DNA of 49,745 nt, taken from assembly GCA_021818865.1 (NCBI GenBank), contig JAKASX010000015.1:1-49745 (forward strand), given 5' to 3'. Source of the DNA: Acidobacteriota bacterium (GTDB lineage: Bacteria > Acidobacteriota > Terriglobia > Acidiferrales > UBA7541). A program made the position numbers and the translations under genes. Below, in pieces: positions 8,131 through 15,610 of this stretch; within the stretch, counting starts at the first letter, position 1; every line of letters begins with the position of its first letter. The notes under the pieces are model-generated. The model saw only the letters and a program-made list of their open reading frames with translations. It was not told the DNA's origin and did no database searches.

Positions 8131-8787
8131 ATGGGGTTGCGGGAGGATTTGACGGCGCTTCGCATGCAGCGCGAGGCGAATCGGAATCCCGACTGGGTGC
8201 GCATCATGCATCGCGCCACCGACGATCTGCGCGATTCGGGCATCGCCCAGCGCGTGTTGAAGCCGGGCGCCCGCGCCCCGGAATTCGATCTCCTGAACGC
8301 AGAGGGCGAGCGCCGCAGCTTGCAAGAGCTGCGCGCGCGCGGGCCGCTCGTCGTGAATTTCTATCGCGGCGTCTGGTGACCCTACTGCAACCTGGAGCTG
8401 GCAGCTCTGGAAGCCGCAAAACCGAAGTTCGAATCGCTCGGCGCGACGCTCGTCGCGATTTCCCCGCAGACCGAGCCGTACCTGCGCCACAGCCAGGAGA
8501 AAAACGGCGTCACCTTCGATTTGCTCGGCGATCCGGAAAACCGCGTGGCGCGCCAGTTTGGCCTGGTCTTCGATATTCCCGCCGAACTCAAGGAAGTCTA
8601 CACGCTGATGAAAATCGATCTGCCGCGCTACAACGGCGATTCTTCCTGGCAACTGCCCATGCCCGCGCGTTTCGTGATCGATCCCGGGGGCGTCGTTCGC
8701 CACGCCGATTTCGATCCCGATTACACCGTTCGCCCCGATCCCTTGGAAACGCTCGCCGCGCTGCGGCGTCTCGAGGAACGAGCGTAG
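8131..8787 (+). CDS. Predicted selenoprotein: peroxiredoxin-like (AhpC/TSA, UxxC motif)
   Basis: A 218-residue thioredoxin-fold, peroxiredoxin-like protein read through an in-frame TGA at 8377-8379. Residues 1-82 end in LVVNFYRGVW, then TGA, then PYCNLEL; the family has RGxWCPYCNLEL, so TGA replaces the first Cys of the CxxC redox site (Sec83, Cys86). The frame continues to a TAG at 8785 with conserved family sequence (ATLVAISPQTE, FDLLGDPENRVARQFGL, ARFVIDPGGVVRHADFD). A strong AAAGGAGG ribosome-binding site precedes ATG 8131 by 7 nt. A SECIS-like hairpin follows the TGA. It would reduce peroxides or disulfides in the cytoplasm. Alternative: a nonsense mutation, judged unlikely because of the position, the hairpin and the second case at 11956. 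Confidence 0.85.
8392..8410 (+). promoter_or_regulatory. Predicted bacterial SECIS element of the peroxiredoxin selenoprotein
   Basis: An 8-bp stem (8392-8399 with 8403-8410, including two G-U pairs) closes a GGC loop at 8400-8402. The loop starts 21 nt after the TGA. Known bacterial SECIS hairpins lie within the coding region just after the UGA, with the apical loop roughly 16-37 nt away and a G in the first two loop positions; this one satisfies all of these. Confidence 0.75.
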
Positions 8788-10157: not shown

Positions 10158-11516
10158 CTACCTTCGGACCAACCGAAAAACGGGAATGCCCCCTGCCACG
10201 ATCGCGACTCCATAGAACGCCTGCAGCGGATTGTGCCCCGCAAGCAACATCAGCAGGAGCACGACAAAACCCAGGAAAATCCCGGGTGTGTACGGATAGC
10301 CGGGCACGACGGGCATGGCGCCATCCGCCGCCCTGTGATGCAGCCGAATGACGCCCGCAACCGTGACCCCGAGAAAGACCACCGCAACAAAAACGAAGTA
10401 GGCCACGATCTGCCGGAACGTTCCGAGCGCCACCAAGAGCGATGCCAGCACGGCCTGGATCGCAATCGCCCGCGCCGGCGTGCGGAAGCGCGGGTGAACT
10501 TGCGCCACGGCCGGAAAGAACAGGCCGTCGCGCGCCATGGCGTAATAGACTCGCGGTGAAAGCATCATCAGCGCCGCCATACTGCCCAAAACGCACGCGA
10601 CGACAAGCGCAGCCAGAACGGCGCCGCCGGCCGGCCCAAATAGACGCACACCCGCCTGCGCCATGAAGGTTTCGCCGGAGGTAATCTGCCGGAAAGGCAC
10701 CACGTAGATGAAAACGCCCGTCACAAGAATGTAGACGAACGTTACGCCCACCACCCCGAGCGTCAGCGCGCGCGGCATGACCCGCTCGGGATCGCGCACT
10801 TCGCCGGCGATTTTGGCCGCGTCCCACCAGCCGCCGAAGGAATAGAACGCCGCCACGCAACCTCCCGCGAGCGCGGCGAAGAGCGGCGCGGAACCGGCGC
10901 GCTGCGTGAAAAAAGGCAGGAAATGGGCGCCGCGCCCTGCTCCGCGCACAACCGCCCAAACCGGAAGCAACGCCAGCGCCCCGACCTTGAACCACGTGAC
11001 CGCCTGGAGAAACCCGCTTCCCAAGCGCGTGGCGCCGATGTTCAGCGCCGCGATCGCCAGGATCACCGCTATGCCCAGGATTTTTTGTCCGATCGGCGAG
11101 AGCGGAACGAGGACGACGGTGTAGGCGGCCATTCCGACGGCGAGCGAAGCCGTTACGCCGGGATCGAGCACGAGAAGCTGCATCCAGCCGTAGAGAAACG
11201 CAAGCCGCTCGCCAAACGCCTCGCGCAGATAAACGTACGCTCCGCCAGCCTCCGGATACCGCGCGGCGAGTCCGCCGAAGCACAGAGCGCCCGTCACCGC
11301 CATCAGTCCCATCAGCAGCCAAACCACCAGCAGCCAGAACGGCGAACCCAATTGGCGCGCCATACCGGCCGGAGTCAGAAAAATGCCGACTCCGATCGCT
11401 TCCCCGGCTATGGCAGCAACAGCGGCGCCGAGGCCCAGTTGCCGCGGAAGGCTCGCTTGCGCGGAGGGGAAAACAGGAGAACCACGGCGATTTGGTCGGG
11501 GAATAGTCTGCTCCAT
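10158..11516 (-). CDS. APC superfamily amino acid permease
   Basis: A 452-residue integral membrane protein with about 12 hydrophobic helices. The first helix carries the APC signature (GEAIGVGIFLTPAGMARQLG), followed by a second helix ending in the ARYPEAGGAYVYLREAFG motif typical of LAT/APC transporters. Later helices (SFGGWWDAAKIAGEVRDPERVMPRAL) carry the conserved W-D-E/R-P region. It is likely to import or exchange amino acids or a related amine across the inner membrane. It lies 151 nt downstream of the AhpD-like selenoprotein gene on the same strand and might share its transcript. Substrate unresolved. Confidence 0.88.
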   Translation of the reverse strand: MEQTIPRPNRRGSPVFPSAQASLPRQLGLGAAVAAIAGEAIGVGIFLTPAGMARQLGSPFWLLVVWLLMGLMAVTGALCFGGLAARYPEAGGAYVYLREAFGERLAFLYGWMQLLVLDPGVTASLAVGMAAYTVVLVPLSPIGQKILGIAVILAIAALNIGATRLGSGFLQAVTWFKVGALALLPVWAVVRGAGRGAHFLPFFTQRAGSAPLFAALAGGCVAAFYSFGGWWDAAKIAGEVRDPERVMPRALTLGVVGVTFVYILVTGVFIYVVPFRQITSGETFMAQAGVRLFGPAGGAVLAALVVACVLGSMAALMMLSPRVYYAMARDGLFFPAVAQVHPRFRTPARAIAIQAVLASLLVALGTFRQIVAYFVFVAVVFLGVTVAGVIRLHHRAADGAMPVVPGYPYTPGIFLGFVVLLLMLLAGHNPLQAFYGVAIVAGGIPVFRLVRR

Positions 11517-11667: not shown

Positions 11668-12237
11668 TCAGCCCTCGCGCCCCACGCCGAGCGCATCGGC
11701 GACGCGATTGATGTAGTTGAACCAGGAAGCGATGAGGGTGATTTGCAAAATGCCGCGATCGTCGAAAGCGACTTGGCGCAGCGCCTGGTGATGCGCCGGG
11801 CTAATTTTCGTTGCGTCTTTCGTGAGCTGAACGACGTAATCCACCATCACCCGTTCGGCCGGCGCGAGGGGTGCTTTCGTGTAGTCGCTTTCCAGTGCCT
11901 TTACCAATTGTTCGTCCAGAGTGACTCGACGCAGAAACTCTGCGTGGGATTCGGTTCAATAATGGCAGCGGTTGGTCACCGAAACCATCGTCGCGATCAT
12001 TTCGTGCTGGCGCCGGGTCAGCGGGAGCTCGGGCGACATCAAGACGCCAAAGGTGGAAAACGCATGGTAGAGCGCATCGGGAAGCAGACTGTGGGATTCG
12101 ACAATCTGCGACCCGCCGCCTTCGACGGGGTGCACCGGCGTGGCGTATTCGACGGGGTACAGCGCCCTTTGCGCTTCCATGGCGCGACGCAGAGCTTCGT
12201 CGGCTTCCGCTAACGGAACGGTTTTGATCCAGGCCAT
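11668..12237 (-). CDS. Predicted selenoprotein: AhpD-like / peroxidase-related protein (CxxU motif)
   Basis: A 189-residue carboxymuconolactone-decarboxylase/AhpD-type protein read through an in-frame TGA at 11956-11958. The N-terminal piece ends [14 protein letters not shown], then TGA, then [11 protein letters not shown]. In AhpD-type enzymes the site is C-x-x-C-x3-H; here it reads Cys91-His-Tyr-Sec94-x3-His98. The frame continues to 11668 with family sequence ([51 protein letters not shown]). Start at ATG 12237, with AGGAGG 10 nt upstream. A perfect hairpin follows the TGA. Likely a cytoplasmic peroxidase or disulfide reductase. Split annotation into two short ORFs (12237-11956 and 11907-11668) would be the usual error. 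Confidence 0.87.
11929..11945 (-). promoter_or_regulatory. Predicted bacterial SECIS element of the AhpD-like selenoprotein
   Basis: On the minus strand ACGCAGA pairs perfectly with TCTGCGT (7 bp) around a GTT loop. The loop begins 18 nt after the TGA at 11956-11958. Position, loop size and the leading G match bacterial SECIS rules, and the stem lies entirely within the coding frame. Confidence 0.78.
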
Positions 12238-12280
12238 GATGACGTTTCCTCCTCAAGGGCCGGTTTGGCCGCGAAGCCGG

Positions 12281-15200
12281 TCAGAACAGATACTTCAACG
12301 CAAACTGAATCAGGCGCGGCGAAAGCGCCTGTTGGATCTGGCCAAACGTCGGCGAACTGATGTCGCTGTTCGGCAGCAGGAAGTTTGGATGGTTGAACAG
12401 ATTGAAGAATTCCGCCCGGAATTGCAGCGTCTGCGATTCGGTCACGGGAATGTTCTTGAACGCCGAGAAATCCCATTCGGCGAGCCCCGGCCCCTGAACG
12501 ACGTTTCGCCCCTCATTTCCGTAAACGCCCGCGGGAGTGGTGGGAAAATTGATGCGCTGGAAGGCGCTCGTGTTGAACCACTCCGCCACCGTTTTGGGGC
12601 CATTGTTGGGGTTCCCAACGAGGTTCGGCCGGAACGCGGAAAACCCGGTAATCTCCGGCGCGTCGTAGTTGAAGCTCTGATCCACCACGGTGAAGGGAGT
12701 GCCAGTCATATAGGTCGTAATTCCATTCACCTGCCAGTCTCCCAGAACATGCTGGTACCAGTTGTGCGGCGACCGCCAGAACGGAATCCGCCACTCGTAG
12801 CTCAAAACGAACCGGTGGCGCGAATCGAACATCGATCTGCCCCATTCGGCGGCGAGGTTGAATGGATTTTGCGCCAGATCGTTTTCGCCCGCCACAGGCT
12901 GCGATTCCGAGCCGGTGATGTTGAAAGAGGAGACGTCGTCGAGCGCCTTCGAGAACGTGTAGGAAGCCAAGAGGGCCAGCCCTCCGCCAAACCGCTTTTG
13001 CAGGCTTGTCTGAAGGCCGTTGTAGGAGGAATTCGCTACCCCGGCGATCAAGCCCACCGAACTGTAGGTGCAATTCCCCTGCGAATTAGGCTGGCAATAC
13101 ACTCTTTGCTGGTCGATATTGTTCTGCTGGTCCGCCCAGGTCTGGCCGAGTAGAGGAACGGAAGGATTGCCCTCGATCAGGCGCGGCAGCTTGGTGCCCT
13201 TGTTTCCCACGTAGCCGATTTCCCAAAGCCAATTCGCGCCAAAAGATCTTTGGACGTTCAGATTCCAGTCCTGCACGTAGGGCAAACGCAAATTGGGCGA
13301 AAGCGTGAGCAGCGTCATCGGTTCGGTAAATTGCGATGCGAATGGATTGCCATTGGCGAAGGGATTCGAAAAGCTCCCGGGAAACATGACCTGCGCGGTT
13401 CGGAGATACGGCGGCGCGCTGATGGGCGTTTGGAGCGGGCCTCCCTCGCCGTTGTAGTAGGGATCGTAGAAAATCCCGTAGGCGGCGGAAATGAGCCAGC
13501 GACCCCTGCCCGTCGGATCCCACGCGATTCCAAAGCGCGGCGCGAAAGCCGTGGTTTCCGTGGGAATCAGACCGGCCGGCACGCCCGGATCGCCGGGATA
13601 AACCAGACCCAGCGGTGCGTTGGGCATCACGCGCGATTGCACGCCCGGCTCGAAAAGGTTCTGCCGGTTGCGAATCTCCGTATAGGGGAAATGCAGTTCG
13701 TATCGCAATCCCATGTTGAAGGTGAGCCGCGGCGTCGCCTTGAACGTGTCTTGTGCGTAGAAGTAGAAATCGTTCCCGCGCAGGCCGCGCGACAGATCTC
13801 CCTGGCCGTTTGGTTGATTGCCGCCTCCTTGCAGGAAGAGGAGGGGTTGGCCGATCAGGAAATTGGCGAATGCGTTGTTCAAAGGGAAGGGGATGAAGAC
13901 GAAGAAGCCATTCGAGGCGATTCCGTTGACGACGTTGATCTGGTCGCGGCTGTAAGCGGCGCCGAATTTCAGTTCGTGAGGCCCGCGAATCCACGTCAGC
14001 GACTCGGATATGCCGAACGCGTTTTCGTAGGTATTCCGCGGCCCAGTGATCGGGTCGCCGATGCTGGCATAGCCGCCGCCTCCGAACTGGATGAAGGGAG
14101 GGCCGGCGGCGATGGAAAGCGTAGGCTGATATTGAAATCCCAAAGAAGCCGGCGAAGTATTGTTCAGATGTTCATCGAAGAGGAACTTGTTGCGGAGAAA
14201 AGAGAATCGGGTGACGGCCAGCAACGACGCTGAAAACGTGTGGGTCCACTGCGTGACGAAATTCTGTATGCGGTGATCTTCGCCGACGGGAAAGCCCGGC
14301 ACGCCGGCGCCGGCCGGAGATAGCGGGTTCGTGCTGTTCCCGTTGAGGAACATGTAGCGGAAGTAAATGGTGTCGCGGGGCGAAAGATAATGATCCACGC
14401 GAACGCCGAACTGGTCTTCCGTGTCGCTCAAAATTTCGGAGCCGTTGTAGAGATTCATCACTCCATTCGCGTCCACGGCGTTGGCCTGTGGGTACAGATC
14501 CATCACCTTTTGCGCGGTGGGATCGATGAACGGCACCGAGTTGTTGGGTAACGGCGTGGGGCCTCCGGGAGCGGCCAAATTGAGCAGCGGTCCATCCTCG
14601 CTGAAATTTCCCTGGCGTTCGAGAGCCGACGGTACGCGCACGTTGTGCAGCGTTTCGCCCTGGCGGTTGCGAAAACCCTCGTAATAGCCGAAAAAGAAGG
14701 TTTTTCTTTTTTGAATCGGCCCGCCCAGCGTTCCGCCAAACTGGTTCTGGCGATATTCGGATTTCGGCAGGCCGCCGGCGTTCTCGAAGAAGTTAGCGGC
14801 ATCCAATTTGTCGTTCCGGAAAAACTCCCACAAATCGCCATGGAACTGGTTGGACCCGGAGCGCGTAACGATGTTTGTGGTCGAACCGGCCGTGCCGCCA
14901 AATTCGGCATTCGCCGTGCTCGTGAGAATCTTGAATTGAGCGATCGCGTCGATCGGTGGCGCCAGGACGTAGCCCCCGTCCACGGAATTGAAGCTGGACG
15001 CGCCGTCGATCAGGAAGTTGTTGGACTCTGGGGGCTGTCCGTCCACGGAGTAAGGCTGGCCGGCCCGCAGCGAGCCGCCGGCTTCGGCGAGGCCTGGCGT
15101 AATCGGCACCACGCCGGGTTGTAGCAGGCCGAGCTGCGAAAAATTGCGCCCATTCAACGGAAGATCGAGGATTTCGCGCTCGCCCACCGTCTTGCCGAGC

Positions 15201-15610
15201 GCGGTGACGGAAGTCTGAATCAGCGGAGCGTTCGCGCGGACCTGCACCACCTGCGCCGCCGACCCGATGACGAGCCGAATCGGAACCGTTGCCGCTTCAT
15301 TCACTGTGAGGGTGATGCCTTCCTGGACAAACTTGCGGAATCCTTTCGCGGACGCCTCCAGGCGATAGCGCCCGATCGGCAGCAGCGGAAGAATGTAGTT
15401 GCCTTGGCGGTTGGTGACGGTTGTCCGCGTCCAGCCGGTTTCCACCTGAATGACAGTGACCTTGGCCGACGGTACGGCCGCACCGCTGGGGTCAACCACC
15501 TGACCGCGAATGCTGCCCGTGACTTCTTGCGAAAAAGCCGGCGCCGTCATTGCCATCGAGGCCAGCAACACGAACAGACCTGCGAAGACTTTTTTCGCGA
15601 CCACCCTCAT
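12281..15610 (-). CDS. TonB-dependent receptor, Oar-like with N-terminal carboxypeptidase-regulatory domain
   Basis: A 1109-residue outer membrane protein. Signal peptide 1-27 (cleavage near APAFS-QE), then a carboxypeptidase-regulatory-like/Cna-B domain at about 30-115 (GSIRGQVVDPSGAAVPSAKV ... GNYILPLLPIGRY), a plug domain (REILDLPLNGRNFSQL, YSVDGQPPESNNFLIDG) and a long beta-barrel ending in ...LIQFALKYLF, with the terminal Phe used for BAM recognition. Such receptors are numerous in acidobacteria and probably import large substrates such as glycans or peptides; the ligand cannot be read. Start at ATG 15610 with a GAGAGG tract upstream. The AhpD-like selenoprotein gene follows 43 nt downstream on the same strand. 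Confidence 0.93.
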   Translation of the reverse strand: MRVVAKKVFAGLFVLLASMAMTAPAFSQEVTGSIRGQVVDPSGAAVPSAKVTVIQVETGWTRTTVTNRQGNYILPLLPIGRYRLEASAKGFRKFVQEGITLTVNEAATVPIRLVIGSAAQVVQVRANAPLIQTSVTALGKTVGEREILDLPLNGRNFSQLGLLQPGVVPITPGLAEAGGSLRAGQPYSVDGQPPESNNFLIDGASSFNSVDGGYVLAPPIDAIAQFKILTSTANAEFGGTAGSTTNIVTRSGSNQFHGDLWEFFRNDKLDAANFFENAGGLPKSEYRQNQFGGTLGGPIQKRKTFFFGYYEGFRNRQGETLHNVRVPSALERQGNFSEDGPLLNLAAPGGPTPLPNNSVPFIDPTAQKVMDLYPQANAVDANGVMNLYNGSEILSDTEDQFGVRVDHYLSPRDTIYFRYMFLNGNSTNPLSPAGAGVPGFPVGEDHRIQNFVTQWTHTFSASLLAVTRFSFLRNKFLFDEHLNNTSPASLGFQYQPTLSIAAGPPFIQFGGGGYASIGDPITGPRNTYENAFGISESLTWIRGPHELKFGAAYSRDQINVVNGIASNGFFVFIPFPLNNAFANFLIGQPLLFLQGGGNQPNGQGDLSRGLRGNDFYFYAQDTFKATPRLTFNMGLRYELHFPYTEIRNRQNLFEPGVQSRVMPNAPLGLVYPGDPGVPAGLIPTETTAFAPRFGIAWDPTGRGRWLISAAYGIFYDPYYNGEGGPLQTPISAPPYLRTAQVMFPGSFSNPFANGNPFASQFTEPMTLLTLSPNLRLPYVQDWNLNVQRSFGANWLWEIGYVGNKGTKLPRLIEGNPSVPLLGQTWADQQNNIDQQRVYCQPNSQGNCTYSSVGLIAGVANSSYNGLQTSLQKRFGGGLALLASYTFSKALDDVSSFNITGSESQPVAGENDLAQNPFNLAAEWGRSMFDSRHRFVLSYEWRIPFWRSPHNWYQHVLGDWQVNGITTYMTGTPFTVVDQSFNYDAPEITGFSAFRPNLVGNPNNGPKTVAEWFNTSAFQRINFPTTPAGVYGNEGRNVVQGPGLAEWDFSAFKNIPVTESQTLQFRAEFFNLFNHPNFLLPNSDISSPTFGQIQQALSPRLIQFALKYLF

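Follow-up and report, generated by a model that had tools for sequence, protein, structure and literature searches.

An AhpD-like gene interrupted by UGA very probably encodes a selenoprotein

We found that the DNA analyzed here, a stretch of 49,745 nucleotides from an Acidobacteriota soil bacterium that we call the window, very probably carries a functional selenoprotein gene, in which UGA 11956-11958 would direct the SelB- and hairpin-dependent insertion of selenocysteine (Sec) into an AhpD-like redox enzyme of the C-x-x-U type (Table 1). The source genome comprises 3.97 Mb in 165 contigs and is 95% complete. On the minus strand, the frame opens at ATG 12237, crosses this single internal TGA and closes at a terminal TGA at 11670-11668, with the internal TGA lying in the motif N-R-C91-H-Y-U94-T-E-S-H98. 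The original prediction, made from the letters of the window, had assigned the TGA to the second Cys in the AhpD active site (RCHY-TGA-TESH), and both frame and motif bear this out. Standard gene calling splits the gene into 11956-12237 (93 aa) and 11668-11907 (79 aa), exactly the two fragments that had been foreseen.

Profile searches with the read-through protein matched TIGR01926, the "peroxidase-related enzyme" family (102.9 bits against a cut-off of 81.8, E 1.7e-29, residues 44-185), and PF02627 (38.5 against a cut-off of 23, E 1.2e-9). The TIGR01926 match covers both sides of the TGA, in agreement with the earlier claim that the family continues in frame to 11668, and the two halves form one TIGR01926/PF02627 protein.

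Table 1. Coordinates of the features discussed, with the evidence for each
Feature	Position	Strand	Evidence or remark
AhpD-like gene, probable selenoprotein, complete	11668..12237	-	189 residues, Sec as residue 94; frame, family profiles, 23-sequence alignment
In-frame TGA, probably read as Sec, second position of the CxxC motif (C91-H-Y-U94)	11956..11958	-	TGA conserved in homologues; Cys in a genome lacking Sec machinery
Likely Shine-Dalgarno sequence, GAGGAGG	12248..12254	-	~10 nt 5' of ATG 12237; placed from sequence
Predicted SECIS hairpin core, ACGCAGA-GTT-TCTGCGT	11929..11945	-	7-bp stem, loop 11936-11938; folding, codon conservation, compensatory pair
Near-invariant block, CAC GCA GAG TTT CTG CGT (18 nt)	11929..11946	-	normalized codon entropy
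APC/LAT-like amino-acid permease	10158..11516	-	directly 3' of the AhpD-like gene, 151-nt gap; PF13520 5e-46
Second probable selenoprotein gene, AhpC/TSA family, TGA 8377-8379	8131-8787	+	NFYRGVW-U-PYC; PF00578 E 1.6e-28

The TGA codon is conserved among close relatives

We searched bacterial and archaeal genome contigs for homologues and took the best 80 of 271 relatives. Since the search peptide carried Cys at the Sec position, the search was not biased towards TGA. These best 80 relatives, with 69-84% identity in the best segment, were labelled Acidobacteria (including Pyrinomonadaceae and Blastocatellia), Gemmatimonadetes and, in one case, Latescibacterota. The Sec codon was TGA in 80/80 (81/81 with the window), and the first Cys codon was TGC or TGT in all 80. 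A 23-sequence alignment, in which homologues of the window subfamily are 71-85% identical to the window protein, ran continuously across the TGA, as the alignment check proposed with the original prediction had anticipated. The 16 residues around Sec were almost invariant, and within the redox motif C-x-x-[C/U]-x3-H and its spacer, C91, Y93, U94 and H98 did not vary.

Among 297 sampled genomes of the phylum, the close form occurred in 23; 22 of these had TGA, the remaining gene, in G014, had no stop, and more distant relatives in the sample (E 1e-31 to 1e-43) also contained one TGA. The close homologue was absent from four congeneric genomes, and this patchy distribution suggests loss or transfer. 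Three order-level relatives (G310, G311 and G312) each have a contig on which two distant AhpD-like matches lie a short way apart, one per strand; each match contains an in-frame TGA, and the two are possibly paired selenoprotein genes.

A near-invariant predicted SECIS hairpin follows the UGA

The predicted hairpin spans +11 to +27 after the TGA, and its GTT loop, with G first, starts at +18. This agrees with the published bSECIS model, which has an apical loop of 3-9 nt, G in one of the first two loop positions, and the loop 16-37 nt after the UGA (PMC13188914). The original prediction had called the hairpin perfect. Its 7-bp stem from the 11th nucleotide, its loop and its position stood, but the folding energy was unremarkable compared to shuffled sequences (z -0.98, -0.21, and -0.84), and the stem is weak evidence when taken apart from comparative data. 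In short-window folding, the minimum free energy structure kept 5/7 stem pairs, while the centroid showed 7/7; an Rfam scan of the window returned no family at threshold.

Comparison across homologues was more informative. Among 81 sequences, the hairpin codons (+4 to +9) had a normalized codon entropy of 0-0.17, compared to a mean of 0.73 and a minimum of 0.44 for the 61 other codons with conserved amino acids. This contrast was made within the same sequences, and its Mann-Whitney p value of 6e-5 is indicative only, as the sequences are related. The mean synonymous difference was 0.028 (pS 0.03) in the hairpin codons versus 0.61 and 0.67 elsewhere in the gene. RNAalifold predicted the hairpin from eight sequences, with one pair showing a compensatory change from C-G to G-C in L119 and L120, two distant relatives with Sec; the L112 row of this alignment starts three bases late, and its first columns are not meaningful. 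It is the conservation, of the TGA (81/81) as well as of the hairpin codons, and not the folding energy, that exceeds chance.

It could be argued that the 18-nt block is kept for codon usage, for the protein or for another regulatory RNA and is not a SECIS, since the encoded peptide, HAEFLR, is itself invariant in the close form and the block folds no better than chance. We consider this very unlikely: the synonymous sites hardly change, although codons for amino acids just as conserved elsewhere in the gene vary freely at third positions; the loop begins with G, and the spacing from the UGA is that of the bSECIS model; in some distant Sec relatives a hairpin of other letters occupies the same place; and the hairpin is lost in the Cys homologue described below. 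As a predicted SECIS, the block is nearly unchanged across three phyla, which is a new detail.

Selection and Sec machinery argue for Sec at the UGA

Mean pN/pS was 0.124/0.608 (~0.20) upstream of the TGA and 0.158/0.671 (~0.24) downstream. By this measure, which the original prediction had proposed as a check, the protein is under purifying selection both before and after the TGA, a strong argument against a pseudogene. A pseudogene of a Cys-type AhpD-like protein, with the TGA due to a nonsense mutation or a sequencing error, would fit the two fragments given by automatic calling and the absence of the gene from congeners. However, the same codon is TGA in every one of the best 80 loci across three phyla, both halves are under selection, and the genome has Sec machinery; since the TGA and the downstream frame are conserved, the pseudogene reading is refuted in practice, and we give it next to no probability.

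We searched the source genome for the Sec machinery by family, and the check came out as the original prediction would have it. We found selA (contig C22, E 6.6e-171), selB (contig C148, E 7.1e-113, plus the SelB-specific wing) and tRNA-Sec (contig C70, ARAGORN anticodon tca), while selD was present only as a contig-edge fragment, above the cut-off and with an in-frame TGA (L083, G000, C116:2-301), so that SelD is probably itself a selenoprotein in this genome. In the phylum sample, the SelB wing was detected in 20/22 TGA-form genomes; it was not found in the draft genomes G208 and G242, of which the former has a strong selB match and the latter selA.

The G014 homologue (L118) is 61% identical to the window protein, has TGC at the Sec codon, and has a motif that reads N-R-T-R-Y-C, with the first Cys replaced by Thr. 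No such hairpin was found in this gene, and G014, which is 99% complete, had no selA, no SelB wing and no tRNA-Sec; a weak tRNA-Sec match proved on checking to be tRNA-Ser. The Cys form, together with the loss of hairpin and machinery, amounts to a natural test that agrees with the Sec reading. With Thr at the first position, the G014 protein may be a one-Cys enzyme with an external resolving thiol. Other Cys forms are annotated as intact genes on proteobacterial plasmids.

A second UGA-containing gene, of the AhpC/TSA family, sits 3 kb from the AhpD-like gene and counts in favour of the Sec reading. It has a hairpin 3' of the UGA (CUGGAGCU-GGC-AGCUCUGG), contains one in-frame TGA in 6/6 matching genomes (the source genome, four congeners and one genome of the same family), and is likewise split by standard calling, into 8131-8379 and 8521-8787. 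That the UGA is read as another amino acid or by non-specific read-through (as with UGA as Trp, or with a near-cognate tRNA) would explain the frame being open across the TGA, but its probability is negligible given that TGA also serves as the terminal stop of the gene, that tRNA-Sec, selA and selB are present, that Cys stands instead where the machinery is absent, and that the SECIS is conserved.

Predicted fold and proposed mechanism

The AlphaFold2 model of the AhpD-like protein reached pLDDT 77 and pTM 0.73, with low confidence across most of the first 60 residues. Its best fold matches in the PDB are AhpD-family structures (6k40, 2oyo, 3c1l, 2prr and 2pfx), with TM values of 0.62-0.79 for 6k40, 2oyo and 3c1l, and a sequence search against structures agrees (2pfx, E 3.6e-21). 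The model thus predicts the all-helical AhpD / carboxymuconolactone-decarboxylase fold. The window protein shares fold and CxxC-x3-H position with these Cys-type "peroxidase-related" structures but differs in having Sec, and its identity to them in the fold alignments is 24-30% over the whole chain and 37% over the 3c1l core.

In AhpD, the second Cys of CxxC attacks peroxide or another electrophile, and the first Cys resolves. We propose that the hairpin immediately 3' of UGA 11956-11958 is bound by SelB carrying Sec-tRNA(Sec) and that Sec would be inserted at the UGA, giving this TIGR01926-group protein a C-x-x-U redox pair with Sec on the C-terminal side. By analogy with AhpD, attack would come from the U94 selenolate and resolution from the C91 thiol, while H98 may be part of a catalytic proton relay. 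Judging from the family, the substrate would be a hydroperoxide or a similar electrophile, reduced with a cellular thiol as reductant. The link to an APC permease hints that substrate or reductant could be tied to an imported small amino compound.

A permease gene recurs beside the selenoprotein gene

The permease directly downstream in the window is closest to LAT-like/SLC7 transporters. Among the best 80 of 271 relatives, a permease homologue adjoins the selenoprotein gene in 20 of the 80 contig loci. It is the immediate upstream gene, in the same orientation, in 17 of these 20, where gaps are -41 to +80 nt (frames extended to the next stop); the many overlaps suggest that the two genes are translationally coupled. 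The other three have it on the downstream side, which is also the arrangement in the window. A permease was also adjacent in 13/22 further loci of the phylum sample (L096, L098-L118), including the Cys form L118, although the two counts overlap, because the sample and the contig loci share some records. Overall, about a third of the loci have a permease neighbour. Since the pairing occurs in both orders, in different phyla and with the Cys form too, gene order points to a functional link. In a separate set of 30 loci, an AMP-binding/acyltransferase gene is adjacent, and no locus has both this gene and the permease.

Two other neighbours were set aside. The upstream outer-membrane receptor (12281-15610; PF25183 barrel, carboxypeptidase regulatory domain) is adjacent in only a few near relatives and was rejected as a conserved partner, and an antisense shadow ORF found in 51 loci by greedy clustering of neighbour ORFs was treated as an artefact of coding constraint, not a gene.

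We also considered, as a doubtful proposal, that selenoprotein and coupled permease form a selenium-dependent two-gene redox module across soil phyla, in which the permease would import the substrate or a thiol co-substrate and the SECIS would have stayed nearly frozen through transfers of the cassette among the SelB systems of different phyla.

Relation to known selenoproteins and significance

AhpD-like proteins are an established class of selenoproteins, as the original prediction stated: CxxU forms were initially identified among Sargasso Sea and GOS sequences (PMC1088965, PMC2398784), and a 2026 review lists an "AhpD-like protein, TIGR01926, CxxU" (PMC13188914). The window protein resembles this class in belonging to the same NCBIfam family and in having a single Sec at the second CxxU residue. 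Unlike the catalogued class, it belongs to a mostly soil subfamily of Acidobacteriota and Gemmatimonadota with a near-invariant SECIS and a permease or ligase neighbour. NF041238 (AhpD_rel_CFYUT), judged from its family name, appears to have a related AhpD domain and to share the Sec position in the motif, but its model is longer (357 positions) and the window protein scores 67.1 bits against a cut-off of 175 and is not a member. Our literature search found no paper describing the soil subfamily or its neighbour genes, and, within its limited extent, none mentioning the permease pairing. While the CxxU class is already known, what is new here is the subfamily from soil, its nearly unchanging SECIS block and its association with particular neighbour genes.

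These findings correct a gene call that standard annotation breaks at the UGA and indicate that Sec is used in an AhpD-like enzyme by a large group of soil bacteria, most of them uncultivated. Bacterial SECIS elements are reported to be diverse in sequence (PMC13188914), in contrast to the near-invariant 18-nt SECIS found here. Together with the recurrent permease, the Sec/Cys pair formed by the window protein and its G014 homologue offers a route to the function of the uncharacterized "peroxidase-related" family.
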